Source of the DNA: Sarcomyxa edulis
Taxonomy: Eukaryota > Basidiomycota > Agaricomycetes > Agaricales > Mycenaceae
Direction of reading: 5' to 3'
Length of the DNA stretch: 64,000 bases
NCBI GenBank assembly: GCA_009761415.1
Contig: QUOL01000027.1
Location: 1 to 64,000 of the forward strand
Shown: positions 10,322-52,895 of the stretch, one piece after another
How the letters are laid out: every line of letters begins with the position of its first letter
Position numbering within the stretch: position 1 is the stretch's first letter
The notes under the pieces: generated by a model
The model's input: only the letters and a program-made list of their open reading frames with translations
What the model was told of the DNA's origin: nothing
Database searches by the model: none
Made by a program: the position numbers and the translations under genes

Positions 10322-12596
10322 TCAGTAGGGTACATAATGCCCGTCTAGTAAATCTCGTAGACGGTTGCTTTCTCCAGCGATAACATGCTCGTCGTCGTCC
10401 AGCTCTGCCATGTCAAAATCAACAACGTAGACCTTTCCCTCATCGTTGATCATAAGATTTGGTGCTCGAATGTCGTGGTGGACCACACCGGCGTTGTGGA
10501 TCCCATCCAAAACAGAGATGAAGGCTTCCCTACGTGACTGGTCAATCGACCGCAAGAACACGCCTGAGTATGGGCTTACCGTTCTGCAGGCGACACTTCC
10601 ACTTTATCCGATTCTCCGCGGTCCTCAAGAGAGGTTCCTCCGTGCTCCATCACCAAAGCCAAAGTCTCGCCCTCAATATCCTCGAACAAGCCGAACACAT
10701 GCAGTATTCCAGGGGCACCTGCGAGATGTCGATAGATACGATACTCGGATCGCATTCGTTCATGCTGTTCTGGGGTAAACGATAATTTGACGACGACGTC
10801 TCGGATGATAGGCGCTCCTTCACTGGGTCGGACCTCTAGCGTGGCGCCGTGGACTGTACCAGTTGAGCCAGAGCCAATACGGGACGTGAGGATAAGAGAA
10901 ATGCATTCGTTCAGAGTGTAGTTCGATTTCAACTTCATGGGGAGATGGGTTTCTGGATTAATTCGTAAGAAGGAGCCTGGGGACGGTGAGTTGTAGGGCC
11001 CGTATCGAATGTAGAGGAGCGCTAGCGTTCGTGATGCGATCTCATTCTCAAAGCTCTGTGAAGGAAGTGAATGAGGACGATGGAGCTTCAAGATCGTGCA
11101 AGGATACGTGCCGGTCTTTTTTTGATAGTAGTTGCCGTGCCCGTGGCGTTTCGTTTACTTCTACGAACCGCCTTTGTTGTCCCGTTCATTTCCCCTTTCG
11201 CTTCTTGACGTACTTGGAACTTTCCTTTGCCCGTTTCCAGGTCAGGATCAACCTTGGCACGTTTCCGACGCGGTCCTTCGTCTTCATTCTTGTCCACAAG
11301 CAACCGTCGTTTCCCATTGACTGGGGGTTCCCGTTGCGCCTCGGAAGACAACTGCTGTTTGACACGATCAAGTGCATCCTCCAAAGCCGCCAGGTACAAT
11401 CCTACATGCAACTTACCATAAGCCGGGTCCTTGCATGCGTGTACGTCGATGACATTGGAGAGGTAGAGTGTCTGGGATTCACGATGACGGATACCTATAC
11501 GTTCCAGAGTCCCGCAATGAAATACAACAAGCGTAGTGTCTCTCAACACGCATCGCGCCCATGCCTAGAATTTCGTCAGCGAAGTTGCTCCCAATACGAA
11601 ACAAAAGCGGCTGACGTGCTGGAGCAGTTGATGCGCGACAGTGACGGCTCGTTTGACAACCTTTCTAGACTTGACTGGCCTCTTAGGCGTGACTTTCGTG
11701 GAGGTGTTTGCTTCTGTGGCTTGCGTCGTCGTCGTGGAATTGGCTGCGGCAGCATGCGCACGAGAGCGGGCTCGAGTGTGTCTCCAAGGCGCGTCCGCTT
11801 CTGAAACGACGTTCGTGGATGATGGGGGTATTGTCCACGGAGTTTTGAGTGCGTCGGGAGGTATTGGGATATCAGCGAGAGAAGGATGACCGGTGGTAAG
11901 GAAGGTCTTGAATGGGAACGTTGGAGTGGACACAACTTGGTCCATCGCCTTGATGACTTCTTCGTTTGCGACCGACAACTCGATTATCTGCCAAGTAGCT
12001 AGCTCTGGATACCGTGCATAGGTCTCTCGCAAGTGATTCTTCAAATCCTGGCTGAGACATTCGGGGAGCTTGGATTCTTCGGCACACTTGTCGTCCAACC
12101 GAATCGCATAAAACTCCGTTACATACTGTTGTATAGTGGTTTCTGGAAGGTGCTTTCCGCCCCAACGCAATAGGGAGAACCAACACGACGAAATACTTGG
12201 GAAGATTCCGAGGATCGATGCAATCGGTTTGCAAAACGGCGCAGTGGTAGTCTCGTAGATCCACACAAGATCCCTTGAGTCGTTGTATCGTCGTGACCTG
12301 GTAATGGCCTTGTCGCAAGCTTCCAGCTCTTCTAGATCTGGTGGAGAGTTCGAATCCTCCGGATCCCTGGGCGGAAATGCCACGCAATTACTACTTGCAA
12401 TATCAGACAGTTTTCGATCGACCATCGAGGAAAGATTCTGTGGAATAGAAGGCAGGGAGACGACCTTCTTGAGAAGCAGGTGTTTGTCGACATGTCTATC
12501 ATAGCATGTCAGTGGAATTGGTGCAACCGGGGTGGGATCGGCGCAGATTTTGAGGATCGGAGGGTTATAGTCAAACAGAACTTGAATGTCGTCCAT
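10322..12596 (-). CDS. A1: family A kinase-fold protein of pair 1
   Basis: Start ATG at 12596 (MDDIQ). Intron 1 is 11615-11565, phase 0; intron 3 is 10579-10530, phase 2. The layout is an N-terminal helical header (residues 1-250), a basic low-complexity stretch (THTRARSRAHAAA, KRPVKSRKVVKRA), a central domain ([39 protein letters not shown]), a second basic linker, then a kinase fold: GSGSTGTVHG loop, VVVKLSF lysine, HHDIRAPN catalytic loop and VVDFD metal site. The key Lys, Asp, Asn and Asp are present, so catalysis is possible. The second intron is unclear: the donor usable in A2 and A3 (GTCAAT) is replaced by an A-rich run here, and exon 3 needs another splice or is frameshifted. Divergent neighbour is B1. 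Substrate and role are unknown. Confidence 0.8.
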
Positions 12597-13047
12597 TATA
12601 GTCTCTCAAATCGACGACTGATGGTTCCTGAAGAATGTGGCTGGCCAGTGCTGAGACAAGAGATGGCGGAACAAAGGGAAGTGACAAGCAGTGACAGTGT
12701 GACCGATCGCGATAAGACGCGATCAACCAAAAGTCCGATGTTTTAACCTGATCTCTATCTTTCAACACCGTTCGTCTCGTCGCATCCTGGTCAAGCCCAT
12801 TGTCCTCGCTTGTATTATATTTTTCTTGGTACCTAAATAGGGTGATCCTGGATTCAGGGTCCTTCCCGGATGGTCTATGGTTTTGTCTAAGTTTCGTCAC
12901 TGGTGGCACTCGGACGGCCAAAGCGCCGTGGTCGCAGTGGCCCGTCCGATCAGTCCAAGCGTGCTACTCCGTGATATATATAAAGCTCGTAACTAGTTAT
13001 GCCTCCAGCTTTCCTACTTTCCATCATTCTGCAATCTTCTCTGCATC
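12597..13047. promoter_or_regulatory. Shared divergent promoter of pair 1
   Basis: 451 bp between the A1 and B1 start codons. On the A side, 12691-12728 holds GTGAC repeats and a perfect inverted repeat GATCGCG-ATAAGA-CGCGATC. On the B side, TCGGACGG (12910-12917) and CCGTCCGA (12942-12949) form a perfect 8-bp inverted repeat, followed by CCAAGCGTGCTACTCCGTG and a TATA box (12974-12984) 64-74 bp before the B1 ATG. The same blocks recur in pairs 2 and 3. Confidence 0.7.
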
Positions 13048-15091
13048 ATGTCAACCCCGGGACAAACCAGGGCTCTCCGTGATCTTTTCGACTCAAGCCC
13101 TCCTACATTGACTCTAGCCAACTCTGGATCCAAGTCTACAGCCACTCGTGGGCCGACCACATTTGACACGCACTTCCCCCCCGAGATTCAGATTCGCCGA
13201 CTCGTCTACCTGCCGGGACTTCTTGATTACCTCAATGGTATCGTGGACGACAAAATGAAGACTATTCGTGCCACTAGGATTCCATTTTCAGTGGGAGAAT
13301 TGAAGGAACTTAAGTCCGCGTATTCAAAATCCACCTGCGACATGAAGGACGAATCAAGTATCGTGAATTTTTACCGGGATACCACTGCCCGTGCTTGCGC
13401 CGAATTGGCATCCTGGCTCGAGTTTGGACCGTGTGCGGGAGAACACATCTTTGATTGGACTCCCGAGAAAAAGCAACGAGTGGAAGCAATTTACGACGGA
13501 GTCCTGAAGGTGGACGAGGACGCGTACAAGAGATGCCGGAGCTCGTTGTCCGCAAAGGTACGCAAGGATATAGAGACGGTCCTACACATCGAGTCCCACA
13601 TGGCCCCTTGGGAGTGCAAGAGTCTATCCGCAGCAAAGGAGGATCTCATACGTGCCATAGTTGAGCTTGCCCAAGCGGAACGCTCTTTTTGCTGGACCTG
13701 CTGCGACTCGGCAGTCAACTGCGGTCGTGGCCACCATTCGTCGAATAAGCCCGGAGCTTCCATGACCGTGACTGGCGCCAGGATGGGTTTCGATGCTCCA
13801 TGTCCTTGTGAGCTTTCTAACTACAAGAAACGCAAACGAGACGAGGATCATAGTTACGTATGCAAAGATTTCTGGCGTAAGATACATTCTTTGCTGCAGC
13901 AGGTCAGAACATCTCCCTTCGCTCTACCATCTTTCTTTCGATGCTAAGCCCTGGTTTTCATTTAGATATGGGCAGAGGCTGTCAAACTGGACTCGACATA
14001 CATGATCCTTCATTCTGGGAATCACGAACTTGTTTGCTTTCGTCAGAGGGCCACTGGTACACTCTATGTCTCTCGTATGATCAAACCCGCCGATCCCGGA
14101 TACGTCAAGCTACATACAGGACTATATCTGGCCATCTGGGGGGATGCTGTTGTCCGCGCAAGCTTGTGGGCTCAAGCTGAATCCCAGGGAACCCTCCCAG
14201 TCCAATACGGGCTCGACAAACAAGACGACCGGGAGCTCGTCGTCCGCCAACGTCAGGCAAGTCATTTTCGATATGGCTCATAAAATTTGACGACGACTAA
14301 CATTGGATCTTTCTAGGGCCTATTCGAAGCAGCTCAATCCAATAATGTTATCAATGCCTACTACAAATCTCGTAGTCCTGGCTTCTCGTGGCGGGGTGCT
14401 ATCGAATGTTCTCGCGTCGAATCTAACGGTCTATCAGTCCAATCTCCAAATTCCCGTGGCTCGAGGCTTCGTGTGATTCTTGGCGATTTGGTCAATGCAG
14501 GGACTCTATACGTACACAAGGCTACTTTGGAAATGCCTGGCGTCTCGATACAGCACTGTGCAGTTGTCACAATAGTCGACTCAAGCTCATCGGATCGTTT
14601 GAGAATCATTGGAAACGAACTAAAGATCTGGACTCACCTGAAATTGAAGGGTGTTGTTAGTTGCGTTCCCAATGTTCTTGGACTGTTTAGGATGTCACAG
14701 TATCCTTACCTTCTGCTACTTACGACGCACAATGGGTTTTCTCTTCCTCAGCGAAAGAAACTTCGCCACGATTGGTACGTTGTATTTGTTTCGCTTTCTC
14801 GATCAACTGAAATTGCTCACTGTGCATCCTAGTCTTACAAAAGAGCAACGTCGTGAATTCGGCGATGCTCTGGGTAGGATCCACGACGCCGGAGTCCTCC
14901 ATGGCCCCATCTGTGCGGACGATCTTCTTGTCGACGGCGATGGCCACGTAAGTATTACTGGATTTTCGAGCGCTAAGATACCCGTTGTTCCTCCGAAGCG
15001 TAGCAAGAAAAGAACGCCGTCCCATGCAGGCATCCAGAAGAAGAAAAATGCAGAAATTTCACAGTTGAAGGAGCTTCTTCAAGGGTATTAG
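13048..15091 (+). CDS. B1: family B pseudokinase-like protein of pair 1
   Basis: Exons 13048-13902, 13966-14256, 14317-14774 and 14833-15091 give 620 aa in frame; intron 2 uses a GC donor (CAG/GCAAGT). The header is homologous to family A (PPTLTL, VYLPGLLDYL). At residues ~205-240 a Cys/His cluster (CWTCCDSAVNCG...HH) looks like a small zinc-binding site. An NLS-like KKRKRDED follows, then the central domain (ELVCFRQRATGTLYVSRMI, YVKLHTGLYLAIWGDAV) shared with family A. The C-terminal kinase-like fold is degenerate: the catalytic loop reads HGPICADDLL instead of HxDxxxxN, and the metal motif reads ITGFSSA instead of DFG, so phosphotransfer is unlikely. A regulatory, scaffold or binding role beside A1 is inferred. 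Confidence 0.85.
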
Positions 15092-15737
15092 AGTATTTAA
15101 AACGCCACCTCTGGATTTGCTAATATCGCCAGTTGTGTCTTGTACAAAGCATGTATATTTTGTTCAGATACAACACCACGGAGTCATCTTTTCGTCGTCT
15201 AAGTATGTCGTCCCAGAACCAGTGATCCACGATCTCCGCTCGTTCTTAATGTTAAATTTTCCTGCAGCAAGCTTAGGAAAACCGACAACATTGGACAGAC
15301 CTAACCCTTCGACATCGAAATTGTGCCGTTCTTTGTGGCGAAGAGCATTGTTGTAGTTTAAAAAAAGCTATGTTACGGGTCAACCATAGTTGAGAGACTT
15401 ACACCCAGTTCCCTGACGTGTATTCAGACAGGTGATCATGATTCTACCCCGATAGGGAGGGCGCGACGTGCCAGTAGCCCCACAGACGTGTCTTCAAGTT
15501 GGACGTGTCGCGATAGAGATTCCAGACCTCGAGAAGAGCCTAGTAAGATTCTTTGGAGATCTCAGCATGCAAGCATTGTCCCCTTCAGCACTATATTAGT
15601 TGCGGCCGAGTCAAGGTTAGGAAGCCTATGAATCGTTCAAGTTGAAATTTTGCTGGTGAGTGTTGAACGTTTGAACGTTGAATTGGTTGCGGCACGGTAC
15701 CGTGACCGTGACAGAGTGACGCTTGTTTCGGACGGCG
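15092..15737. other. Intergenic region before the kinesin gene
   Basis: 3' flank of B1 and 5' flank of the kinesin gene. No conserved element, repeat or additional exon is recognised. The ATG at 15738 is used for the kinesin because the longer upstream frame starts only with TTG. Confidence 0.5.
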
Positions 15738-18080: not shown

Positions 18081-18162
18081 TAGAAGTTTTTTCTCCAAAT
18101 TCATCTTGTACTCTCATAGGAATAAATTTATTCGTCATCCAAGCACTAAGATGTAGACTAGA

Positions 18163-33941: not shown

Positions 33942-35978
33942 TCAATATCCTAGAAGAATCTCCTTCAACTGAGCCCGTTCTGCGTCTTTTTTCTTCTGGA
34001 TGCCATCATAGGACGGTGTTGTTCGCGTCTTGCCACGCTTCGGACGAACAACGGGTATCTTAGCGCTCGAAAACCCAGTGATACTTACGTGACCATCCCC
34101 ATCGACAAGAAGATCGTCCGCGCATATGGGGCCATGAAGGACTCCGGCATCGTGGATCTTACCCAGAGCACCGTCGAATTCACTACGTTGTTCCTCGGTA
34201 AGACTGGGATGCATCATCAAGTTAACTGATCGAGAAAGCGAAAGAAGAACGACATACCAATCGTGGCGACGTTTCTTCCGCTGAGGAAGAGATAACCCAT
34301 TGTGCGTGGTAACTAGCAGGACGTAGGAGTACTGTGACATCTCAAACAGTCCAAGAACAACCGGAATGCAGCCATCAACACCCTTCAATTTCAAGCGAGT
34401 CCAGATCTTGAGTTCGTTTCCAATGATTTTCGAACGATCCGACGAGCTTGAGTCGACTATTGTGACAACTGCACAGTGCTGTATCGAGACGCCAGGCATT
34501 TCCAGAGTAGCCTTGTGGACACGGAGAGTCCCTGGATTGACCAAGTCGCCAAGAATCACACGAAGCCTCGGACCACGGGAACTTGAAGCTTGCACTGATA
34601 GACCATTGAATGCGACGCGAGGACATTCGATTCCACCACGCCACGAGAATCCAGGATCACGGGATTTGTAGTATGCCTCGATAACACCATTGGACTGAGC
34701 TGCTTCGAATAAGCCCTAAGGAAATTTTCAATGTCAATCATCAAATATCATACTGTCCAAAAACGAACAGACTCGCCTGACGTTGACGGACAACGAGATC
34801 TCGGTCATCTTTAGTGTTGAGCCCGTATTGGACTGGGAGAGTTCCTTGAGCTTTGGCTTGAATCCACATCTTTGCGCGGACAACGGCGTCTCGCCAGATC
34901 GCTAAATACAAACCTACATGTAGCTTGACATATCCAGGTTCGGCAGGTTTGATCATACGAGAGACGTAGAGTATCCCAGTGGCTCTGTGGCGAAAGCATA
35001 TGAGTTCTTGATTACCGGAATGAAGAATCATGTATGTCGAGTCCAACTTGACCGCCTCTGCCCATATCTAACCGTGGTTACAAAATCAGCATCGAGAAAA
35101 CAATGGCAGAGAGAGGGACACAATGTTTTGACCTGTTGCAGCAAGCTATGTATCTTGGCCCACAGAGTTTCGCGTATGTAGCTCTGGTCCTCGTCTCGTT
35201 TGCGTTTCTTGCAGTTAGGAAGTTTGCAAGGATATGGGGCATCGAATCCCATTCTAGCGCCAGTTACGTTCATCGAAGCGCCTGGTTCGTTCGAAGAGTG
35301 GTGGCATCGACCGCACTTGAAGGCGGAATCGCAGCAGGTCCAGCAGAAAGAGCCTCCCGCTTGAGCATATTCGACTATGGCCCGTATGAGTTCCTCCTTA
35401 GCAGCGAATAGACTCTTAGCCTCCCAAGGGGCCATATGCGACTCAACGCTCAAGACCGTCTCTATATCTTCACGTGCGGCGGCAGACAAAGAACTTCGAC
35501 ATCTCTTGAAAGCGTCCTCGTCTACCTTCAGAGCTCCATCGTAGATTGCGTGCTCTCTCTGTTTTTTATCGGGTGTCCATAGAAAGATGTGTCCAGAAAG
35601 AGTGCCAAACTCGAGCCAGGAGGCCAATTGTGCGCAAGGACCGGCAGTGTAATTGTCATAATAGTTGATAACAGTAGACTCATCCAACATTGCCCGCGAT
35701 GCCGTACGATATTGGTCTTTCCAAGCTCTCAGCTTGGTGATGGTGAATGGAATTCGGGACGCGTCAATATTCTTCAGCTTGTCGTCCACAAGGCCACATA
35801 AATAGTCGGGAAGATCAGGCAAGTAGACAAATCGTTTTAATTGAGCCTCGGTAGCGAGGTGCGTATCGTATGAAGTCGGCCCACGGGTGGCGGTAGATTT
35901 GGATCCAGAGCTCGCCAGAGTCAAGGCCGGAGGACTAGCGTTGAGAAAATCCCAGAGAGCTTTGAGTTTGTTCGACAT
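33942..35978 (-). CDS. B2: family B pseudokinase-like protein of pair 2
   Basis: Exons 35978-35133, 35067-34777, 34715-34258 and 34203-33942 give 618 aa; intron 2 again uses a GC donor (CAG/GCGAGT). The header is MSNKLKALWDFLNASPPALTL. The Cys/His cluster is CWTCCDSAFKCGRCHH with NLS-like KKRKRDED. The central domain reads ELICFRHRATGILYVSRMI. The kinase-like fold has HGPICADDLL and ITGFSSA, so the catalytic Asp and DFG Asp are absent as in B1 and B3. It is about 95% alike to B3 in the last three exons but clearly different around residues 75-125. Divergent partner is A2. Confidence 0.87.
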
Positions 35979-36473
35979 GACGGGATGAAGACTACTGAGT
36001 GGTTAGGTAGTAAAAGGTGGGGAGAAGGGGAACACCAGCAAGTATGTGAGATGACCTTATATATGCCACGGAAATAGACGCTTGGGATGCTATTTATGGA
36101 AACATTGAAGTGGACGATGCGACCGAAACGCTGTGGCCCGCCGTCCGAGTAGCGAATGAAAACAATGATGGGCCATCCGAAATTTAGACGAATTCCTGAA
36201 TTATTTGAAATCAGAACATTAATAGTTAAGCGTAAGCACGGGATACGCTGAAAGACAGAAGACCGGCGGAAACAGCAGGCTAGACCAAAAATTGGACGAT
36301 AGGATGGTGGCCGTCACAAAGAGAAAGATTCAACCAAGATCGCGCTTATCACGATCGGTCACAACGTCACAATTTGAAATTTCGTGCCACTTCAAGTTCC
36401 TTTGTTTCTCAACTTCTGCGAGTCTTGTCTCAGCTCTGACCAGGAAAACATCATTCGCACAAGTGTAAAAGAT
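35979..36473. promoter_or_regulatory. Shared divergent promoter of pair 2
   Basis: 495 bp between start codons. The A side has GATCGCGCTTATCACGATC and GTCACAACGTCAC (36331-36370). The B side, read on the minus strand, has CTCGGACGGC, CCCAAGCGT, CCGTGG and a TATA box (about 36056-36064) about 80 bp before the B2 ATG. These match pair 1 and pair 3. Confidence 0.68.
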
Positions 36474-38769
36474 ATGATAGACAACATTCAGCTTCTATTG
36501 GACTACAACCCTCCTAGTCTCGAGATATTTCCCGATCTAGACACACCAGTTCCGCCTGTTCCACTGATATTCTATGATAAGCATATCGACAAACACCTTC
36601 TTCTCAAGCACGTACTCTCTTTGCCCTCCGCTCCACAGGACCTCGCCTCGACAGTTGATCAAAAGATGTTTGATGTGAAACGCAGATGCGTCACATTTCC
36701 GGCCAAAGATCCGGAGGATATGGAGCTCCCATACCAAGAGATGCTAGAGGCTATCGACGAGGTCGCCGTCGAGAGACGGAGAAATAACTGTGCGAGAGAT
36801 ATTGCATGCTTCTACGAGACAACCACTGCCGCATTTTCCGCATCGCTTGCATCAGTCCTTGGTATTCTTCCCAGCCTTGTTTCGTCGCGTTGGTTCTCTC
36901 TCTTGCGCTGGTGCGGAAAGCGTTTCCCAGAGACTATCATTCAACAATATGTCACTGAATTCTACTCGATTCGGTTGGGCGAAGAGTGTGCCGAAGACTC
37001 CACACAACCCGAAGGTCTCAGCCAGGATTTGAGGACTCACCTGCGAGAGGCCTATACGCGGTACCCAGAGCTAGCCACTTGGCAGATACTCGACTTATCG
37101 GTCTCAAATGAAGAGGTCATCAAGGCGATGGACCAAGTTGCGTCCACTCCAACTTTCCCATTCAAGACCTGCCTTACCACCGGTCACCCTTCTCTCGCTG
37201 ATATCCCAATACCTCCCGACGCACTCAAAACTCCGTGGACGATACCCCCTTTACCCACGAACGTCATTTCAGAAGTGGACGCGCCTTGGAGACACACTAG
37301 AGCCCGCTCCCGTGCGCACACTGCCGCACTCAATCCCGCGACGACGACGCAAGCCCCAGAAGCAAACGCCTCCACGAAAGTCACGCCCAAGAAGCCAGTC
37401 AAGTCCAGAAATGTCGTCAAACGAGCCGTCACTGTCGCGCATCAACTGCTCCAGCACGTCAGCCGCTTTCATTCCGTATTGGGAGCAACTCTGCTGACGA
37501 AATTCTAGGCATGGGCGCGATGCGTGTTAAGAGACACTACGCTTGTTGTATTCCATTGCGGGACTCTGGAACGTATAGGCATCCGTCATCGCCAATCCCA
37601 GACACTCTACCTCTCCGATGTCATCGACGTACACGCGTGCAAGGACCCGGCTTACGGTAAGTTGCATGTAGGATTGTACTTAGCGGCTTTGGAGGATACG
37701 CTTGATCGTGTCAAACAGCAATTGTCGGCCGAGGCAAAATTGAATTCTTCAGTTGACTCCGCTGTCCATGGGAAAAGACGGCTACCTGCAGTAGACGACG
37801 AAGACGAAGGACCGCGTCGAAAACGTGTCAAGGTCAATCTCGACCTTCAAATGGGCGAAGGAAAGGTCCAACCACGTCACCAAGCGAAAGGGAAAGGGAA
37901 GGGGACGACAAAGGCGGTTCGCAGAAGCAAAAGAAACACCAAGGGCACGGAGAACACTATCGTCAATCACGATACACCGGCGCGTATTCTTGCACGATCT
38001 CGAAACTCCATCGTCCTCATTCACTTCCTTCACAGAGCTTTGAGAACGAGGTCGCATCACGAACGCTAGCGCTCCTCTACATTCGGTACGGCCCCTACAA
38101 CTCACCGTCCCCTGGATCCTTCCTACGAATCAGCCCAGAAACCCATCTCCCCATGAAACCGAAGTCGAACTACTCTCTGGACGAATGCATGTCTCTTATC
38201 CTCACATCCCGTATTGGCTCTGGCTCAACTGGCACAGTCCACGGCGCCACGCTAGAGGTTCGACCCAGCGAAGGAGCACCAACCATCCGGGACGTCGTCG
38301 TCAAATTATCATTCAATCCAGAACAGCATGAACGGATGCGATCCGAGTATCGTATATATCGACATCTCGCAGGTACCCCTGGAATACTTCATGTGTTTGG
38401 TTTATTCGAGGATATCGAGGGAGGGACTTTGGCCTTGGTGATGGAGCACGGAGGAGCCTCTTTGGAGGACCGCGGAGAATCGGATAAAGTGGAAGTATCG
38501 CCTGCAGAACGGTAAGCCCATACTCAGGTGAGTCGTTGCAGTCGATTGACCAGTCACGTAGGGAAGCCTTCATCTCTGTTTTGGATGGGATCCACAACGC
38601 TGGTGTGGTCCACCACGACATTCGAGCACCCAATCTTGTGGTCAACGACGACGGAAAGGTCTTCATTGTTGACTTTGATCTGGCAGAGCTGGATGATGAA
38701 GAACATGTTGTCGCTCGAGAGAGCAATCGTCTACGAGATCTACTAGACGGGCATTATGTACCCTACTGA
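36474..38769 (+). CDS. A2: family A kinase-fold protein of pair 2
   Basis: Exons 36474-37457, 37509-37961, 38036-38511 and 38562-38769 give about 706 aa. The ATG at 36474 (MIDNIQ) is chosen because it aligns with A1 and A3. After the header and basic linkers (KVTPKKPVKSRNVVKRA; KGKGKGTTKAVRRSKRN), the kinase fold has G540 in GSGSTG, K569 in VVVKLS, D657 and N662 in HHDIRAPN and D675 in VDFD. HRD is HHD and DFG is DFD, substitutions also common in fungal FunK1-type kinases. The second intron donor (GTCAAT) is the only one that keeps frame, so that border is provisional. Likely nuclear and possibly catalytic, with B2 as its partner by position. Confidence 0.85.
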
Positions 38770-40928: not shown

Positions 40929-42962
40929 TCAATAACCTCGGAGAATCTCCGTCAACTGGGACCGTTCTACATCTTTCTTCTTCTGGATGCCCGCATAGGA
41001 CGGCGTCGTTTGCTTATTGCCACGTTTCGGGCGAACGACGGATATCTTAGCGCTCGAAAACCCAGTGATACTTACGTGACCATCCCCATCGACAAGAAGA
41101 TCGTCCGCACATATGGGGCCATGGAGGACTCCGGCATCGTGGATCTTACCCAGAGCACCGTCGAATTCACTGCGTTGTTCCTCGGTAAGACTGCAATGCA
41201 TCATCAAGTTAACTGATCGAGAAAGCGAAAGAAGAACGACATACCAATCGTGGCGACGTTTCTTCCGCTGAGGAAGAGATAACCCATTGTGCGTGGTAAC
41301 TAGCAGGACGTAGGGATACTGTGACATCTCAAACAGTCCAAGAACAACCGGAATGCAGCCATCAACACCCTTCAATTTCAGGTGAGTCCAGATTTTCAGT
41401 TCGTTTCCAATAATTTTTGAACGATCCGGTGAGCTCGAGTCCACTATTGTGACAACTGCACAGTGTCGTATCGAGACGCCAGGCATTTCCAGAGTAGCCC
41501 TGTGGACACGGAGAATCCCTGGATTGACCAAGTCGCCAAGAATCACACGAAGCGTCGGACCACGGGAACTTGAAGCTTGGACTGATAAACCGTTATCTTC
41601 GATCCGAGAACATTCAACAGCACCAGGCCACGAGAATCCAGGATCACGGGACTTGTAATATGCCTCGATAATTTCATTGGACTGAGCTGCTTCGAACAGG
41701 CCCTGGAAAATCAACAATGTCAGTCGTAAAACAGTATACGCTCTAAATGATGGACTTGCCTGACGTTGACGGACAACGAGATCTCGGTCATTATTAGTGT
41801 CGAGCCCGTATTGGACTGGGAGAGTTCCCTGAGCTTTGGCTTGAACCCACATCTTTGCGCGGACAACAGCGTCTCGCCAGATTGCCAGATACAGACCTAT
41901 ATGTAGCTTGACATATCCGGGTGCGGCGGGTTTGATCATACGAGAGACGTAGAGTGTCCCAGTGGCTCTGTGGCGAAAGCATATGAGTTCTTGGTTACCT
42001 GAATGCAGGATCATGTAAGTCGAGTCCAACTTGACCCCTTCTGCCCATATCTAACAGCAGCCGCAAAGTCAGCAACGAAAGAACAACCGTAGAGAGCAGG
42101 AGGATGTTCGGACCTGTTGCAGCAAAGAATGTATCTTCTCCCATAGCTCTTTGCGGACATAACTCTGATCCTCGTCTCGTTTGCGTTTCTTGCAGTTAGG
42201 AAGTTCGTAAGGACATGGGGCATCGAATCCCATTCTAGCGCCAGTGACGTTCATGGAAGCTCCCGGTTCGTTCGAAGAGTGATGACATCGACCACACTTG
42301 AAAGCGGAATCGCAGCAGGTCCAGCAGAAAGAGCCTCCCGCTTGAGCATATTCAACTATGGCACGTATGAGTTCCTCCTTCGCAGCGGATAGACTCTTAG
42401 CTTCCCAAGGGGCCATATGCGACTCAACGCTCAAGACCGTCTCTATATCTTCTCGTGCGCCGGCAGACAAAGAACTTCGACATCTCTTGAAAGCGTCCTC
42501 GTCCACCTTAAGCGCACCGTCGTAGATTGCGTGCTCTCTTTGCTTCTTATCGGGTGTCCATCGAAATATGTCGTCTCGGGAATGGGTGCCAAATTCGAGC
42601 CAGGATGCCAGTTGCGCGCAGACAGAAGCAGTCGTAGTGTTGTAGAAATTCATGACACTGGCTTCGTCTGTCATCTCTGATGGCATTGTCTGATATTTAT
42701 CGTGCCAGTTATCTAGTGTTTCGGTGGAAAACGGGATTTGAGAAGAGCGAATAGTCTTCATTTTGTCGTCCACAATACCAAGTAGGTAGTCAAGAAGATC
42801 GGGCAGGTAGACGAGTCGATGAATCTGAATCTCGGGAGGAAAATGCATGTCGTATGCTGTCGGCCCACGAGTGGATTTAGATTTAGATCCGGAGCCCGCC
42901 AGAGTCAAGGTTGGAGGACTGGAGTTGAGAAAATTACGGAGAGCTTGAAGTCTAGTCAACAT
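40929..42962 (-). CDS. B3: family B pseudokinase-like protein of pair 3
   Basis: Exons 42962-42114, 42050-41760, 41702-41245 and 41190-40929 give 619 aa. The ATG at 42962 (MLTRLQALRNFLNSS) aligns with B1 and B2; the longer upstream frame has no family match. Intron 2 has a GC donor (CAG/GCAAGT) and happens to be open in frame. The Cys/His cluster is CWTCCDSAFKCGRCHH, the NLS-like motif is KKRKRDED, and the pseudokinase loop is HGPICADDLL with ITGFSSA. Its last three exons are nearly the same as B2, but residues about 75-125 differ strongly. Divergent partner is A3. Confidence 0.87.
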
Positions 42963-43397
42963 GATGGGGACGAGTTTGTGGACCAGTGGAAAGTGGAAAA
43001 GCAGAAGACATCGATGAAGGAAGACTTTATATACACCACGGAGTGGCACGCTTGGACGCATCGGATGGGCCACTGTGACCAAGCCTGTGCTTTGGCCGTC
43101 CGAGTGCCACCAGTGACGAAACCGTGCCGGACCATCTGGGACGAACCCTGGATTTGAGATATCCCTTGTCACTGGCACGCGAGAATACATGATATAGGCA
43201 AGAACATTGTGCCGGATCAGAATGTAAGGAGACGGTCGTTGAACTTCGTTGAAAGATAAAGATCAGGTTCGTTGGTTGGTTGATCGCGTCTTATCACGAT
43301 CGGTCACACTGTCACACCCACTCTTCCCTTTGTTCCACCATCTCTTGTCTCGGCCACATTCTCCAGGAACCATCAATCGTCTAATTGAGCAGCCAGA
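42963..43397. promoter_or_regulatory. Shared divergent promoter of pair 3
   Basis: 435 bp between start codons. The A side has TTGATCGCGTCTTATCACGATCGGTCACACTGTCAC in the 43278-43315 stretch. The B side, read on the minus strand, has TCGGACGG, CCATCCGA, CCAAGCGTGCCACTCCGTGG and a TATA box at 43024-43034, about 65 bp before the B3 ATG. It is closest to the pair 1 promoter. Confidence 0.7.
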
Positions 43398-45684
43398 ATG
43401 GACGATATTCAAGCTCTGTTGGACTACAACCCTCCGAGTCTCGAGATATTCCCCGATCTAGACACCCAAGTGTCACCTGTACCACTCACATTCTATGATA
43501 AGCAGATCGACAAGCACCTACTTCTAAAACAGGTAGTCTCTTTGCCCTGCATTCCACAGGATCTTTCCGCGATGGTCGATCAGAAGCTACTTGCTATCAC
43601 AAGTAGTTGCGTCGCATTTCCACCCAAGGATTCGGAGACCACGAAGTTCCCGAAACGAGCGAGGATAGTAAATGCCGGAATCAGCGATGCCTTCGACTCA
43701 CTAGAAAGGAATGGGGCTAGAGATCTTGTATCTCTCTACGCGACTACTACAGCCGCATTTTGTAAGTCGCTTGCATCAGTCCTTGGTGTCTTTCCCAGTG
43801 TTTCGTCTTGCTGGTTCTCTCTACTGCGCTGGGGCGGAAAACATTTTGCAGAGACCACTATACAGAGATATGTCACGGAGTTCTATGCAATTCGATTGGA
43901 CGAAAAGTGTGCGGAAGATTCCAAACTCCCCGAAGGTCTCGGTCAAAATTTGAAGACGCAGTTGCGAGAAACCTATGAGAGGTATCCGGAGCTGGCGACT
44001 TGGCAGATTATCGACTTGTCTGTCGCAAACGAGGAGGTCATCAAGGCGATGGACAAGGCAGTGTCCACTCCAACGTTCTCATCTGAGACCTGCCTCACCA
44101 CTGGTCATCCCTCTCTCCCTGATATCCCGGTACCTCCTGACGCACTCAAAGCTCCGTGGACGATACCCCAATTACACACGAACTTCATCAAACAAGAGGA
44201 TGCGCCTTGGAAAAACACTCGAGCCCGCTCTCGTGCGCACGCTGCGGCACCCAATTCTACGACGACGCCCGCAAAGGCCCCTACTAAGGTGACACCTAAA
44301 AAGCCAGTCAAGTCCAGAAAGGTCGTCAAACGAGCGGTCACTGTTGCGCATCAACTTCTCCAGCACGTCAGCCGCTTTTACATCGTGATGGGTGCCAATT
44401 TGCTGATTAGGTTCTAGGCATGGGCGCGATGCGTGTTAAGAGACACAACGCTTGTTGTATTCCATTGCGGGACTCTGGAACGTATAGGTATCCGTCATCG
44501 TCAATCCCAGACACTTTACCTCTCCGATGTCATCGACGTACACGCATGCAAGGACCCGGCTTATGGTAAGTTGCATGTAGGATTGTACCTGGCGGCTTTG
44601 GAGGATGCACTTGATCGTGTCAAACAGCAGCTGTCGACAGAGGCGCAGCAAGATTTTCCGGTCGGTCCCTCAGTCAATGGGAAACGACGGTTGGTTGCCG
44701 ACGAAGACGAAGACGAGGGCCCGCGTCAGAAACGTAGCAAAGTCGGCCCTGATTCTCAAATGGACGAAGGAAAAGTACAAGAATGTCAACAATCGAGAGG
44801 AAAAAGGAAGGGGAAAGGGACGACAAAGGCGGTCCGCAGAAGCAAAAGAAACACCAAGGGCACAGCCAACACTATCGTCAATCATGATACACTGGCACGT
44901 ATCGTTGTATGGTCTCAACAGCTCATTATCCTCATTCACTCCGTTCACAGAGCTTTGATGACGAAGTCACGTCCCGAACACTGGCGCTCCTTTACATTCG
45001 CTATGGCCCCTACAACTCGCCGTCCCCTGGTTCCTTCCTACGAATCAATCCAGAAACGCATCTCCCAATGAAATTGAAATCGAACTACTCCCTCAACGAA
45101 TGCGTGTCCCTCATCCTCACATCCCGTATTGGCTCTGGCTCAACTGGCACAGTCCACGGCGCCACACTAGAGGTTCGACCCAGCGAAGGGGCACCAATTA
45201 TCCGGGACGTCGTCGTCAAATTGTCGTTCGCCCCAGAACAGCACGAACGGATGCGATCCGAGTATCGTATATATCGACATCTCGCAGGTACCCCTGGAAT
45301 ACTTCATGTGTTTGGTTTATTCGAGGATATCGAGGGAGGGGCTTTAGCTTTAGTCATGGAGCACGGAGGAACTTCTCTGGAGGATCGCGGAGAATCGGAT
45401 AGAGTGACAGTGTCCCCTGCAGAACGGTAAGTACATACTCGGGCGAGGTTCTACGGTCTATTGATCGATTATGCAGGGAAGCCTTTGTCTCCGTTTTAGA
45501 TGGGATCCACGACGCCGGTGTGATCCACCACGACATTCGAGCACCCAATCTGATGGTCAACGATGACGGAATGGTCTTTGTCGTTGATTTTGACTTGGCA
45601 GAGCTAGACAATGACGAGTATGTTGTCGCTCGAGAAAGCAACCGTCTGAGGGATCTACTAGACGGGCATTATGTACCTGACTGA
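43398..45684 (+). CDS. A3: family A kinase-fold protein of pair 3
   Basis: Exons 43398-44366, 44418-44876, 44951-45426 and 45477-45684 give about 703 aa. Header MDDIQALLDYNPPSLEI, a basic segment KVTPKKPVKSRKVVKRA, the central domain [18 protein letters not shown], an acidic then basic linker (DEDEDEG; KRKGKGTTKAVRRSKRN) and a kinase fold with GSGSTG, VVVKLS, HHDIRAPN and VVDFD. Catalytic positions are intact. Compared with A2, exons 2-4 are nearly the same, but residues about 68-115 are largely unrelated. The second intron border is provisional, as in A2. Divergent partner is B3. Confidence 0.86.
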
Positions 45685-46011
45685 CGCCGTCATAAATTAT
45701 TCATATCTATACCATTAGTATATTTGCAACTTCGTAATATGATTCTGATCCCGGAAAGGAGTTTGGCACTTCTTTGCTCAAAGTCAGGATAATCTGCGAT
45801 TAGTTCGGTGAATTTGGGTACCCCATCATTGTAAACGTACGACGCACACATCCGGTCAAGTGGTCCAGTCGTCGACGTGACTTTGAATGGAGAGACGCAA
45901 AATACCAACGATCTGGATGATCGTGGCAATATGGTAAAGGGTGAGACAGTATAGATTTGAGTTGTAGTGATAACAGTCGACTTCTCATTTCAGAACAGCT
46001 CATGTAGCGCT
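45685..46011. other. Intergenic region between A3 and ARG7 stops
   Basis: Convergent 3' flanks. No exon, repeat or regulatory element is recognised. Confidence 0.5.
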
Positions 46012-47649
46012 TCAACTACGATAATCGCCATTGATCCTCACGTATTCCTAAGCATATCAAGAGGTTGTCAGCAAAGACTCTTGGGAGCGGTACGACGATG
46101 ATGAGGCTCACATAGCTGAAATCACACGTCCAATACTTCGCTTCTGCATTGCCTTCACCGCCAAGATCAACCGAGACCTCAAAGTCCTCCTTCTCCAAGA
46201 TTTCTTTTGCGCGGACCTCGTCGACATTCTGAGGCTCCCCGTTGACGAGTACGGCGAGGGGTGATGAGTTATCGGATGGTACAAACGAGACTGACACTTT
46301 AGTAGGGTCGATTGGCGATGAAAGCGTTGATAGCGATCCTGTCGCTGCTAGAATACGTCCCCAGCTATCATGTTTTTTGTCAATGTGGCAAAGCGAAAGA
46401 GACGAATATGTACATACTTGGCATCTTCTCCGTAGAGAGCTGTCTTGACCAACGCCGAGGTCGATATTTTGGAGGCTACCGCGTGTGCGTCTTGATACGT
46501 GGATGCACCCTGCGAGCAATGGATTAGGATAACAAAGAAGAATATGTACGGAATACGCACCTTAACAGAAACGGTGACAAATTTCGTCGCACCCTCGCCA
46601 TCTCTAACCACCAATTTTGCGAGCTCCACCGCAAATTCTGTCAAGACGGTCTTGAACGATTCGTACGCTGCCCGATCTGTGGCCTCGTCTATCGCAACGG
46701 GTGCTTCGACCGTACCAGCAGCAGCTCCATTGGCCAAGACCAGAATGGTGTCATTCGTCGACATGTCACCGTCCACACTGATACTGTTGAAACTTCTCTC
46801 GACGGCATAAGTGAGCGCTGTCTGCAGGGATCGCGGTGACACGGGTGCATCCGTCAAAATGCAGGCTAGAAGTGTTGCGTGGAGTTCACCAGGAGTACGA
46901 CTGAAATCCGTTCCCGCAGGCCCCATATCCGGATGAATCATTCCTGCACCTTTATCCATTCCTGCCATGCGATATGTAGTGCCGTTGATGGTGAATGTCC
47001 GACCTCGTAGTTTTGGGAAGGTATCGGTGGTCATGAAGGCTTTCGCAGCGCGTTCCCAAGCAGAAAAATCAGATCCTAGGGTACTCGTGGAAGCAGCACC
47101 TGCTAGACCTTTGGAATGCGACTGAGAACGGATACCTGAGATTATATTCGAGATGGGGAGATTTTGGCCTATGACCCCCGTGGACATTACCAGCGTTTCC
47201 CTATGCTCTTCGGGCACCGATATAGATGTTCTCCATGGTGCTGCTGGAATAAGACTGTCTGTTTCTTGCACCATCGCCAACGCATCTTCGAGTCCTTGTT
47301 TCCCCGTAACAGCATTTGCACACCCGCTGTTAACGACAACAGCCCTAGCTCGTCCTCCGTTCTCCCTCAGGATTTTTTCTGAGACCACAACTGGAGCAGC
47401 CTTGAACACATTCCGAGTAAAACAACCCGCTGCAGATGTCGGATATTGGGATGTCGAGATGATGAGGGCGAGATCTGGTACTCCTGCTTTCTTTTTGACG
47501 CCAGAATGTAATCCAGTTAACAGATACCCTGCTGGAAAGACAGAAGAAGGTAAGACGCCATGTAGATGACTTTTTGAGGGCTGTGGTTTGACGGAGATAG
47601 TCGTTGAGGCTTGAGTCGAAAGTCGCCTCAAAACACGCGGAACTGACAT
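46012..47649 (-). CDS. ARG7: Mitochondrial ornithine acetyltransferase (ArgJ family)
   Basis: The ATG at 47649 (MSVPRVLRRLS) opens a basic mitochondrial leader. The body shows the ArgJ family order: VPDLALIIS, CFTRNVFKAAPV, AVVVNSGCANAVTG, MSTGVIGQNLP, DKGAGMIHPDMGP, the self-cleavage site HATLLACILTDA (Thr nucleophile), SISVDGDMSTND and GEGATKFVTV. The C-terminal exons hold TALYGEDA, WGRILAATG and the short ending EYVRINGDYRS at 46012. The enzyme transfers acetyl from N-acetylornithine to glutamate in the arginine pathway and is cut into two chains. Three introns near the 3' end were inferred from splice signals. Confidence 0.94.
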
Positions 47650-48076
47650 GGTGGAGCGCAAAAGACTAGATATCTCAACAGCTTCAAGCTATGCTATATG
47701 ACTCACGCAAGTTCAAGGCTAAAATGACTCGCACAGGACATGATTACAAAGATAGAAAAGGTAGATACGAATTGGACATTTGTTTCCTCCGAGTGTAAAC
47801 GACATCGCTCATAGAGTGAGCGAAGTGAAAAAGCTAACACAACAAGTTGGAAAGACGACTCGAAGGAAGATATTTCTACCATCGCTCCGTTACTCTCAAG
47901 TCGGAAAGAGACGACAGGAGAGTGCAGCACTGTTGCTGCATCGATGGTAAAGAAATCGAAAAAAGAGAAAAAAAACCCTTTTTATACATCACGGGTGTAA
48001 CATATGGTCACATATCACGTGAGCAGAGTCGCGAAGCAGCTTGCGTCCGCCGTTGGTCCGCCGAGTAAGTAAAACG
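47650..48076. other. Intergenic region between ARG7 start and A4 stop
   Basis: 5' flank of ARG7 and 3' flank of A4. A TTTTTATACATC stretch lies at about 47980, on the plus strand only. No gene is recognised. Confidence 0.45.
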
Positions 48077-50281
48077 CTATCCGTCTGATGTATATTCTCC
48101 ATCCAGCAAGATATCCAGTTTATCACGCTCCTGATCGAGGAGTTGCTTATTGTTGGTCAAGAAAGCCTTGTCAAAGTCAACGATAAAAGCATTTCCATCC
48201 TTGTTGACCAGCAGATTCGGCGGTCGAATGTCGTTGTGAACGAGGCCAGCCTTGTGGATGCCATCCAAACACGCGACAAACGCTTCCCTGCAGGTTATGT
48301 CAGCATATTAAAGTCTTGCATACTCATAAAGCCACGAATACACACCGTTCCGAATCAGATACCGTTACAGAATTTGTGCGTACCTCTTCTCGATGCCACA
48401 GTGAAATTCCTCCGTGTTCAAGAACCAGCGCCAGAGCTCCTCCTTCAACATCTTCAAACAAGCCAAACGCTCGCAGTATTCCAGGTGTATTAGAGGTGGA
48501 GAGACATAGGTATATGGAGTATTCGTGCAGTAGACGTTGTCGTTGTTCCGGAGTGAACGAAAGTTTGACGACCACATCCCGGATGATTGGTGGCCCTGCC
48601 TCGCGTTGGATTTCTAGAGTAGCATCATGCACAATCCCCGTTGCTCCTGCACCAATATAGGAAGTGAGGACGAGGGTGATATATTCACTTGAAGAGTACC
48701 CGGGTGACTTGAGATTCCCCTTATGTGTCTTCGGATCAGTTTGTAGAGACGATGCTGGGGATACGTCGAGTCGTAAAAAGGACGCTGGGGACGGTGAGTT
48801 GTACGTGCTATAGCAGATATAAAGTAGCATCAATGGCCGACTCGCAACATGCTTGCAAACAACCTGGGAACGGATCACGAGGGTAGGTGTGAACGGATTC
48901 CCCGGACAATGATGGATACAGCACACGTGCCTGGACATCACCCCCGTCTTCGTCGTCTTCTTCTTCTTCTTTCACTACCTTCGGTACTTGAGTTTTCTTG
49001 CCTCGGCCGCGTCGACGAGCGTAGCCAGTCTTTACACGTTTCCGCCTTGGACCCTGTTCTTTGATATCTGTCGTTACTTTCGCGCGTTGCGTCTCCGCCT
49101 CGAGTTGTTGCTTTACACGATCCAGTGCATCTTCGAGAGCCGTCATGTACAATCCTACGTGCAGTTTGCCGTAAGCTGGGTCTTTGCACGCGTGTACGTC
49201 TATGACATCCGTCAGGTAAAGCGCTTGGTTTTTGCGATCCCGGACTCCTATACGTTCCAGAGTACCACAGTGGAATACGACAAGTGTCGTGTCCTTTACA
49301 GTGCATTGCGCCCAGGCCTGCACTTGGATCAGGACAAGGGGTTTACTAGGTAGCAATATCGAAGGCACGTACATGTTGGATGAGTTCTTTCGCAACGAGA
49401 ACAGATGATTTTTTTGTCTTCGTACTGGTCCCCAGTTTACAGGGCTTGACCATGGAGGTTTTCGTATTGTCAGATGCTGAAGAGTGTCGAGATCGCGTGT
49501 GTGTCCAGGGAACATCTATTTTCTTCGATGGAATGGTCCATGGGACCTTTAGTGCATCCGGGGGTACTGCGATATCTGGACGAGAGGGATGGCCGGTGGT
49601 AAGACATGCCTTGAATGCGAAAGAGAAAGCGGGCGCAACCTTGTCCATCGCCTGTATAACCTTTTCGTTCGCTACTGACAATTCGATGATTTGCCATGTC
49701 GCTAACTCGGGATATCGCTTGAACGTCTCTCGTAACAGTCTCTTCATGTCTTGACTGAGACAATCGGGTAGTGTTGAATCGTCAGAGCATATTTCCGTCA
49801 ATCGTAGGGCATTGTCTTCCATTATATATGGTTGTGCAGTGGTATCTGGTCCGCACTCCTGGGACCATCGCAACAAGGAAAACCAAGAAGAAGACGCGCT
49901 GGGGTAGATAGCAAGCAGGGAGGCCAATGAATTGCACGACATAGCAGTAGTTCGGTCATAAAATAGCATTAGAGAATACTGATCGTCACGTCCTTGTGCC
50001 CCAATGGCAAATGCATCTCTGCGACCTTGATTTATGAGCGCATTTGAACCCGGTGGGAGCACGATTCCACTGTTTTCAAAGGCGAGGAGCTTCTCATCGA
50101 CAGCTCTCGATAGAGCCTGCCGGATAGATGGAACAGTAATTACTCGTCTGAGTAGTAGATGCTTGTCGATGTGTTTATCATAGAATGTCAACGACGTTGG
50201 AGCAACGGGAGTAGCACGATTTGGGTGCATTATGAGATGGGGTGGATTGTGACTGAGAATGGCTGTAATTTCGGCGTTCAT
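48077..50281 (-). CDS. A4: divergent family A kinase-fold protein of pair 4
   Basis: Exons 50281-49373, 49317-48925, 48863-48346 and 48287-48077 give 676 aa with all introns clean. The header ([30 protein letters not shown]) and central domain ([38 protein letters not shown]) are clearly family A but the most diverged. The basic linker differs ([18 protein letters not shown], then an acidic [10 protein letters not shown] run). The kinase fold has [29 protein letters not shown] and IVDFDKA, so catalytic residues remain. The C-terminus ends EYTSDG instead of HYVPY. Divergent partner is B4, which is also the outlier of its family. Confidence 0.86.
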
Positions 50282-50793
50282 TCCAACGTTTGTGAGGCCA
50301 GTCCAAGTCCGACGTGGTATCAGCTAAGTACCAGGCAAGTGAAGCTAGTGAAGGTTGAGTGAAAGTATAAGACAAAGACAAGAATGTGACAACGCGTTTT
50401 GATGCACGTCACTGTGTCACGCACCGTCCTTCTCCGTCCTTTCATCTTGAGCTTGAACGACGAGTGGCCTTTTGAGTTCTCTCAACATTCTCCGAGTTCC
50501 CATCGATTTCAAGTGTTTTCTGACTCTAGAATCAAGTCTTCCCTCGGTTTTTGCAAGATCACTATTCTGCCATGATCCAATACATGACGATTGTCAATGC
50601 CACTTGGACCTTTTTGCTGAGCGCTAAGTACCCTGGATGTGCCACTGTGGCTGGGCCACAGCGCAATTCCCATTGTTCTCTTTGCTTTGTATGTTTTCCA
50701 AACTCCGATATGACATAAAAATCGATACGTCCTGCAAGTCTGACCATCTCAACTACTTACTCCTTGCCACATCTGCATATAACATATCTCTGG
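50282..50793. promoter_or_regulatory. Shared divergent promoter of pair 4
   Basis: 512 bp between start codons. On the A side (50385-50422) it keeps only clustered GTGAC/GTCAC boxes (GTGACAACGCG, GTCACTGTGTCAC). The GATCGCG and TCGGACGG inverted repeats of pairs 1-3 are not recognisable. A palindromic GCCACTGTGGC lies at about 50641. No canonical TATA box is seen near B4. Confidence 0.5.
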
Positions 50794-52895
50794 ATGTCGA
50801 CGACCTTCGAAACCCTACAGGATCTACTCCAATCCAGCCCTCCAGGCCTGACTTGCGCAAAAGATGGCTCAAAATCGACATCCACTAATCCCCCGACCTT
50901 TTTTGATCTGCACTTGCACGACAAACTTGTTATCAAAAACGTGGTTTCTCTTCCCACTCTTGTGGAAGATCTATCTAACCTTGTGGACGAGCCTCTCAAG
51001 AACATTACAGAGGAAAAATCCCACTCTGCTGTCACTGCATATCTGGTCGAGCGACTGCAAGACCTTCGAGATTCATACTCATCATCTCGTACGTCCATGA
51101 AGGACGAGGCGAGTGTGGTACGAATGTATGAAGAATCCACTGGCAAATTATGTCCGTCAATAGCCTTCTTCCTCGCATTTTGCACTGCTCCCGCGACCGC
51201 ATCCAACATCCTCTTGTGGACCTCCGAAACCAGCCAAAGGATCAACGCCATCGCCGATGGACACTTTCAAATAAACGTCGCTGAGCTAAACAAATATCGG
51301 GACATCTTTCCTCCCGACGTCGTCAAAGAACTTGACATGGTGCAGCGGTGCTTCCCGAACATGGCCACTTGGGAGTTCAAGAGTCTGACTGTTGCCCCGA
51401 AGAAGGTCTTTGAAGCCATTGTTCGGATGGCCAAAGCCGGAACCACTTACTGTTGGATATGTTGCACGTCTCAATTGCATTGTAATTGCAGGTCACACTA
51501 TTCTCTTGGAGGTTCGCGTAGGACCGTGACGGGGGCCAGAGTTGGGTTCGACGCTCAATCTTATGATGTCAGACTTCCCGGCCTCTCTGAAGTCAGCATC
51601 CTTCCTGATTCTCCGGTGAATACTCTCCCTCGTCGTGGCACCAAACGCAAACGGGACGCCGAAGACCTGAAGCCACTTCATATAATGCAACAGGTGAATT
51701 CCCTCCGTTTGTTCATTGAGTCGCTGATTTATCTCATTTACGCAGGGTTGTTCTCAAGCCGTCAAGAACGATGTGACGTACTTTGTCTACAACGCCGGAA
51801 ACTACGAAATAATCTGCATTCGTCATCGTGCCACACAGACTGTCTACGTATCTGATATTATCAAGACCAGTGACCCAGGCTACGCAAAACTCCAGATCGG
51901 CTTGGAAATGGCGATTTTGCGCGACGCTATCGAACGTGCCAGATTGTGGACTCAGGCTGAAATGGATGGGACTCTTCCGACTCAGCCCTCGTATCATCTA
52001 GATTCAGAAACTGAAACTCAGCAGACCGACTCGGAGGATAATCAGCCCGCCACACAAGACTCAGAGGTACAGTGTTTGCCTTCGAAGGTGGATTACACAG
52101 ATGACTCACCATCAATATTATAGAAACTCTACAAAGAAGTCTACGCCAGTAGGTACCTGATGATCTGCTCAGCATCCAAGGTCGAAAGCCCCCAGATCGT
52201 ATTCCCAAAGACTCTGTCCACTCGTGAAGGATCATTGGGCTTTCGATCCGACATCCTAGATCCCAGCGTTTCGCCTGCACGCGTCACGGTGATCTTGGAC
52301 GAAAAAATCGACATGTTCAACTACAAAGCAACTCTAGAGGTAGGTGACACTGCGTTCCTTCGGCATGCCCTCCTCGCCAGATTGGCATTTGGTCGGCATC
52401 GAAAGCAGATGATGAACGAGGTCGGGATTTACACGCATCTGCATTCGAGAGGAGTCGTCGATTGTATTCCTGATGTCTTGGGTGTCTTCCATGCCGAACC
52501 GGAAGGTCTGGTACTCTTGACCAGGAACGTTGGGGAAACTCTCGCGGAGAGAAAGCGTCTGCACCTACCCAGGTATGTTTTCGCTGCCATTCACTCGGAA
52601 CATTTTGGTTGACACTAGATATAGCCTTACGGAAGATCAACGGTCGGGATTCCACCATGCATTGGATCAAATATATGAATCTGGAGTCGTGTTCGAGGAT
52701 CTCGACAGTATTTCGGAAGCCAACCTACTTGCTGACGAACATGGCCGTATCTGGATCACCGACTTTTCGGAGGCCACGATAATTGCTGCATCTCAGACGG
52801 GTACCGCTGACGTTGACGAGCAGTATTTAAGCCGACTGGTCAAGAATAAGCTGATGGGACGTGCTCGGTTGAACGAGCTCCTGCGAGAATGTTGA
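50794..52895 (+). CDS. B4: divergent family B protein of pair 4
   Basis: Exons 50794-51693, 51746-52066, 52124-52572 and 52619-52895 give 648 aa. The ATG at 50794 (MSTTFETLQDLLQSSPPGLTC) aligns with B1; the longer frame starts with TTG. The Cys/His cluster is CWICCTSQLHCNC followed by H, and an NLS-like GTKRKRDAED follows. The central domain reads EIICIRHRATQTVYVSDII. Its kinase-like region is less decayed than in B1-B3: the metal motif is ITDFSEA, with the Asp present, and ANLL resembles the Asn position, but the catalytic loop is VFEDLDSISEANLL, without a normal HxD. Intron 2 has a GT donor (GAG/GTACAG), unlike the GC donors of B1-B3. Confidence 0.86.

Follow-up and report, generated by a model that had tools for sequence, protein, structure and literature searches.

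Head-to-head kinase and pseudokinase paralogs of Sarcomyxa edulis, tentatively read as a split killer/protector module

The first 64 kb of contig QUOL01000027.1 of Sarcomyxa edulis (the window; the contig, C20, is 274,839 bp long in a genome of 35.6 Mb and 40 contigs) carry, close to a telomere, four gene pairs in which a kinase gene, here called A, stands head to head with a gene of the same fold, here called B. Why should a kinase be kept beside a partner with a degraded kinase, and why should the two be copied together? Here, we report that A and B are paralogs with opposite residue sets, the kinase set in A and an E-D-E-x-K set in B, and that their trees mirror each other. The reading that we favor, at a probability of roughly 0.42, is a split nuclease-plus-kinase protein with Spok-like action, in which B would harm and A would protect. 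No description of this paired family was found in the literature searched, most subscription journals being outside its reach.

Four divergent pairs of one paralog family

Scripted splice models and paralog comparison bear out the four head-to-head pairs of the initial annotation (A1/B1, B2/A2, B3/A3, and A4/B4) and its start spacing of 435-512 bp, the start-to-start distances being 452, 496, 436, and 513 bp in pairs 1-4; the telomere it placed nearby is real as well (AACCCT x19 at window positions 1-114).

In pair 1, the kinase member A1 lies at 10322..12596 on the minus strand (exons 12596-11616, 11564-11169, 11055-10580, and 10529-10322), with the kinase residues K, H, D, N, D, and F present. 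The shared intergenic region at 12597..13047 (451 bp), which has a TATA-like site 69-73 bp before B1, separates it from the pseudokinase member B1 at 13048..15091 on the plus strand (exons 13048-13902, 13966-14256, 14317-14774, and 14833-15091), with E-D-E-K present and the kinase aspartates gone. Intron 2 of B1 (14257-14316) has a GC-AG border, common to B1, B2, and B3 at the same place and predicted in B17. Pair 2 consists of the pseudokinase member B2 at 33942..35978, minus strand (exons 35978-35133, 35067-34777, 34715-34258, and 34203-33942), a shared intergenic region at 35979..36473 (495 bp), and the kinase member A2 at 36474..38769, plus strand (exons 36474-37457, 37509-37916, 38036-38511, and 38562-38769). 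Pair 3 is laid out alike: pseudokinase member B3 at 40929..42962, minus strand (exons 42962-42114, 42050-41760, 41702-41245, and 41190-40929), shared region at 42963..43397 (435 bp), and kinase member A3 at 43398..45684, plus strand (exons 43398-44366, 44418-44831, 44951-45426, and 45477-45684). In pair 4, the kinase member A4 is at 48077..50281, minus strand (exons 50281-49373, 49317-48925, 48863-48346, and 48287-48077), followed by the shared region at 50282..50793 (512 bp) and the degraded-kinase member B4 at 50794..52895, plus strand (exons 50794-51693, 51746-52066, 52124-52572, and 52619-52895), which has E-D-E-K. Please note that intron 2 is uncertain in the models of all four A genes, and the adjoining linker was used for no conclusion.

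The units in the window are joined by long direct and inverted repeats, far above chance. A and B had been taken for two families; this was wrong, because the proteins of the window pairs (618-691 residues) align end to end and so form one family of full-length paralogs, which rules out unrelated families. From the N-terminus, a divergent part (N1) is followed by a second N-terminal part and then by a middle domain that is strongly conserved; the C-terminal domain is kinase-like.

Opposite residue sets in A and B

The alignment covers 27 proteins of A-type, 11 of B, and 20 from databases, 58 rows in all; B15, P0002, P0004, P0010, and P0017 stand outside it, as do the unmodelled A-type genes K14, K26, and K29. 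All 27 aligned A-type proteins have the kinase residues K, H, D, N, D, and F, and none has the full E-D-E-K set (E-D-E-x-K when written with its spacer), nor its first E, nor its K. The B side is the reverse: E-D-E-K is present in 11 of 11 aligned proteins (and by eye in B15), the full kinase set in none, and both full sets occur together in 0 of the 38 aligned proteins of this genome. Both kinase aspartates are gone in nine of the 11 B proteins, seven according to the residue table plus B14 and B16, which were read from frames because their 3' models are mis-spliced; the VAIK lysine is left in five of the 11.

Pfam scans of four members agree with this division. At a Pkinase cut-off of 31.7 bits, A2 (46.2 bits) and A4 (37.6 bits) are above, and B2 (11.9 bits) and B4 (19.6 bits) are below; the match ends at profile position 147 in A2 and 152 in A4 of 263, i.e., a short kinase that ends soon after the DFG-equivalent. 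The Pkinase scores, the residue table, and the fold searches thus sustain the earlier view that A resembles a kinase and that B has the same fold without the full catalytic set, the latter being the criterion of a pseudokinase.

Among six diverse B proteins, the first E, the E-x-K, two cysteines, and a QQ are invariant, also when the Amanita protein P0012 is added (28-40% identity to the first row); the D is likewise constant among the six, and P0012 has an E in its place. E-D-E-K is absent from all 20 database rows; P0012 shows E-E-E-K and P0022, also from Amanita, E-H-E-N, both with an intact kinase set, and P0016 shows E-D-E-N, its kinase part being unaligned. P0012, sister to B in the tree below, therefore fits a bifunctional ancestor, which is plausible for the B side on these residues.

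The residues were placed on an AlphaFold2 model of B3 (P0025, folded with introns retained; mean predicted local distance difference test score (pLDDT) 76.8, predicted template modelling score (pTM) 0.55). E100 begins a helix of residues 100-124, D148 is just ahead of a strand at 149-153, E187 is within and K189 just past a strand at 182-188, and the middle-domain helix and two strands follow. The A-type model P0001 (pLDDT 80.7, pTM 0.81) has a similar order of elements. The order around E-D-E-K in the B3 model is that of PD-(D/E)xK enzymes, a fold that was confirmed by none of the searches given below.

Divergence and co-duplication of the pairs

Eight comparisons were made within A1-A3, A4/A5, B1-B3, and B4/B5 (pairs 5 and above lie outside the window). 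The overall ratio of nonsynonymous to synonymous divergence (dN/dS) is 0.23-0.32 in the eight and 0.24-0.30 in the four among B genes, so that both A and B are under purifying selection in close comparisons. Synonymous divergence (dS) is higher at the 5' end, with values of 0.59-1.68 over the first ~110 residues and 0.12-0.51 over the kinase part; of eight further comparisons, six go in the same direction and two (B2/B17 and K20/K22) in the opposite one. Nucleotide identity follows this gradient in four comparisons of units (units 1-3 and units 4/5): the last quarter of the gene gives 0.82-0.97 for B and 0.82-0.94 for A, the first eighth 0.66-0.74 for both, and the sequence just beyond the genes 0.36-0.45. 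Intergenic identity is 0.69-0.73 between units 1 and 3 and 0.32-0.57 in the other comparisons. The 5' ends of both genes are thus the most diverged coding parts in closely related units, and this 5' core has either been spared by gene conversion or been kept different by selection. Recent copies are seen in units 14 and 16, which resemble each other over their full length and, at the B end, also just past the gene.

The 7-mer ACTCGGA is found in eight of nine intergenic regions (maximum in 30 shuffles, 6). We rejected it as a common promoter motif, since the longer form ACTCGGACGG is confined to pairs 1, 2, 3, and 17, at 119-165 bp before B, and the sites in other regions vary in strand and position. 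Five of the nine regions have a TATA-like site 66-91 bp before B, and the genome contains no further exact copy of a 15-mer taken from pairs 1 and 3.

The tree was drawn from 54 rows, i.e., without P0015, P0016, P0020, and P0021, by a quick search with support from the Shimodaira-Hasegawa-like approximate likelihood ratio test (SH-aLRT) only and with a long-branch warning. B forms a single clade (support 98) that is sister to Amanita P0012 plus P0022 (99); the A and K rows, all A-type, unite at a support of 87 and are drawn open. Three main A-type lineages correspond one to one with three B lineages. Over 10 A/B partner pairs, taken without B14 and B15 and with B10 and B24 paired with their nearest A-type neighbors K11 and K25, patristic distances are correlated at a Mantel r of 0.96 (p = 5e-5); the value is again 0.96 for seven subfamily representatives (p = 4.5e-4) and for six without B24 (p = 0.0025). 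The pruned A and B trees have six of seven splits in common, which was attained in 1 of 20,000 relabellings. Because the two trees mirror each other, the pair is old and has been duplicating as a unit; with similarity at background just beyond the outer gene ends of units 1-5, this upholds the claim that the pair is the duplicated unit. The simplest reading of the sequences is that the pair would predate the split of these lineages, B having been lost, or A copied alone, several times.

These results also bear on whether B might be nothing but decaying copies of A-type genes, as the missing kinase residues and the end of B15 ahead of its kinase part could suggest. We consider this highly improbable: 11 of the 12 B genes have long models in which E-D-E-K is intact, and B is one clade beside Amanita proteins rather than scattered among A-type genes. 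On the tree and the dN/dS values, we rejected B as pseudogenes.

Census of the genome

The S. edulis genome was searched with A2, B2, B18, B24, and P0022, followed by modelling. The counts are lower bounds because only the best candidates were scored (64 of 131 in one search and 71 of 91 in another); K26 and K29 are known from exon matches only and K14 from translated frames. At least 30 A-type and at least 12 B-type places were found on contigs C20, C10, C12, C3, and C40. Nine pairs are tightly head to head, with a gap of 421-744 bp (A1-A5, A17, K14, K15, and K16 with B1-B5, B17, B14, B15, and B16, respectively), and two are loosely so, K18/B18 at 1.9 kb and K11/B10 at 4.1 kb (the mid-gap sequence of the latter was not fetched); B24 stands in tandem among A-type genes on C12.

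The initial annotation held that the genes occur only as divergent pairs and named frequent solo genes in relatives as what would speak against it. Its statement is true within the window; genome-wide, 19 of the 30 A-type places found have no head-to-head B, many being solo or in tandem, and none of the 12 B genes found is isolated. Half of the adverse outcome is therefore present in this genome, frequent solo A-type genes, and the other half, isolated B genes, was not seen among the 12 found: strict pairing fails for A-type and nearly holds for B. Fetched flanks of solo A-type genes held no B remnants at an expect value (E) of ≤0.05, only three A-type fragments. Tandem A-type arrays are at C12:2764494-2782089, which includes B24, and at C3:359376-364456; A-type fragments are at C12:2779182-2779289 and C3:439966-440055.

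Named A-type relatives come from Agaricales, e.g., Hypsizygus and Mycena. Whether the database search used the B alignment or B18, three proteins were obtained: P0022 (Amanita muscaria) and P0023 and P0024 (Desarmillaria, Armillaria). Of these, P0022 alone groups beside B in the tree; the absence of B from other species does not follow from this, because only candidates sharing most words were scored.

An ordinary old duplicate pair that shares a promoter, with separate housekeeping or stress roles and adjacency for joint regulation only, would agree with the A-type homologs across Agaricales and with the spacer of 421-744 bp, as head-to-head genes so spaced commonly share a promoter. Repeated copying of the pair, the many solo A-type genes, and the rapid 5' divergence are unusual for housekeeping genes, and we regard such a pair as improbable.

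A possible killer and its protector

No B gene found is far from an A-type gene (0 of 12), and A-type genes often have no head-to-head B (19 of 30), the pattern to be expected if B were harmful and depended on A for protection. In the split nuclease-plus-kinase reading, a single ancestral protein would have combined an N-terminal part, an enzyme domain of PD-(D/E)xK-like type, a middle domain, and, at its end, a short kinase. Its duplicates would then have divided the functions: A would have retained the kinase without the enzyme residues, and in B the E, D, and E-x-K of the enzyme would have persisted and the catalytic function of the kinase been lost. A and B would have stayed head to head and duplicated and diverged together. 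Their shared region may co-express A and B, which would act on each other in a complex, B damaging nucleic acid and A restraining B, or the effect of B, through its kinase. A-type genes without B would then be orphan protectors. A fuller version appears unlikely as a whole, namely a two-gene killer/protector made of reciprocally degenerated paralogs of a bifunctional nuclease-kinase, moving as a compact cassette, diversifying at the shared 5' core such that killers and their own protectors stay matched, and leaving orphan protectors when the killer is lost.

Several observations weigh against the split killer/protector. B4 and B5 retain both kinase aspartates, B4 also the kinase asparagine, and what they lack is the VAIK lysine and the glycine loop. 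B24 is not head to head, and B10 and B18 are so only loosely. A-type homologs are found in several other Agaricales and B hardly at all, and A may therefore have a function of its own. The N-terminal part has no nuclease match in Pfam, NCBIfam, PADLOC, or a solved-structure profile: the names from Pfam were weak and unrelated (best E 0.013), NCBIfam returned nothing, PADLOC matched one of seven members weakly to RmrT (E 0.02), and the solved-structure profile gave one chance-like match, cytochrome c-550 (E 1.5). Comparison by hhalign with seven FunK1 frames gave a probability of ≤8%. The structure fold searches bore on the kinase part only, since the kinase domain filled the match list in both.

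A close rival, possible though tentative as well, is a kinase/pseudokinase complex for recognition or signalling, in which B would be an allosteric partner or substrate of A with no nuclease activity, serving non-self recognition or the control of cell death. The fast-diverging first ~110 residues of A and B would here set the A-B fit, much as the variable N-terminal parts of the HD1/HD2 mating factors set partner fit. Such a complex alone leaves unexplained the retention of E, D, and E-x-K by every aligned B protein and of the full set by no aligned A-type protein, as well as the frequent lack of a B beside A-type genes. If it is nevertheless correct, these pairs are a multicopy two-gene mushroom system with HD-like variability. 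If, instead, B is harmful and A protective, they are a Spok-like dual protein that nature has divided into one gene for killing and one for protection, and how a kinase neutralises killing becomes testable with two separable parts.

Likeness to known systems

The Spok proteins of Podospora anserina have killing and resistance in separate domains: a predicted PD-(D/E)xK domain kills, with its catalytic lysine required, and a kinase protects (PMC6660238, partial text); SPOK1 kills by targeting DNA (PMC9972908, partial text). The Spok kinase with its catalytic Asp is matched by the A-type proteins, 27 of 27 aligned. Compared by description, Spok is one protein with both activities, whereas the residue sets here are in two head-to-head paralogs, and the cysteine cluster of B, ahead of the middle-domain helix, is a further difference. 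The Spok-type resemblance that had been suggested is therefore strengthened in one respect, because E-D-E-x-K is found only in B, and falls short in the other, both activities in one protein; we do not claim that A and B belong to Spok.

FunK1 (PF17667) is likewise fungal and multicopy, with a kinase behind a PD...E-x-K-pattern domain, a pattern read by eye from seven S. edulis frames. These frames (L001-L007, on contigs C34, C7, C2, and C3) have the pre-kinase PD...E-x-K-like pattern, E-N-K in two of the seven, and then a Q...Y helix. FunK1 membership was rejected, as A2, A4, B2, and B4 have no PF17667 match at E ≤1 and the hhalign probability is low; Amanita P0012 and P0022 match PF17667 weakly (14.6 bits, cut-off 24.1). 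Judging from these patterns, FunK1, too, may combine a nuclease and a kinase in one protein, as in the Spok type.

The HD1/HD2 mating-type genes of Basidiomycota are divergent gene pairs (PMC4915694, partial text). A and B are like them divergent and multicopy, with the 5' ends most diverged, and the suggested HD-like layout gains some support because these 5' ends, in both genes of units 1-5, lie beside the shared intergenic region. A homeodomain is what is missing, no such family being matched at E ≤1 in the Pfam scan of A2, A4, B2, and B4; the A/B copies are also, unlike HD1/HD2, scattered over several contigs.

In bacterial toxin-antitoxin systems, one member is not seen alone and the other often is, and the genes are adjacent, as here. 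A and B differ in being eukaryotic and long paralogs of each other, and the toxicity of B is hypothetical. RIPK3/MLKL is also an active kinase with a pseudokinase partner (PMC12881547, partial text), and B differs from it in the conserved E-D-E-x-K set. In the available parts of that review of fungal cell death there is no mention of SPOK or Basidiomycota, and its pseudokinase passages are silent on such pairs (PMC12881547). RIPK3 and MLKL, to our knowledge, are not a head-to-head pair.

Surroundings of the pairs

Subtelomeric repeats of ~1.43 kb occupy window positions 1-5523 and contain interstitial tracts that resemble the telomere, the last of them at 5406-5446; a retrotransposon-like integrase frame (H2C2, rve, Tf2-1 SH3, and chromo matches) adjoins the repeats at 5530-7263. 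A mini-chromosome was considered, and the last 502 bases read at the far end of C20 contain no telomere repeats. A frame of 1102 residues at 54254-57559 has no Pfam match, and one at 31964-32866 has a weak endonuclease/exonuclease/phosphatase match below cut-off. Two other neighboring frames are a kinesin/microtubule-binding one at 15723-17072 and ArgJ at 46351-47661.

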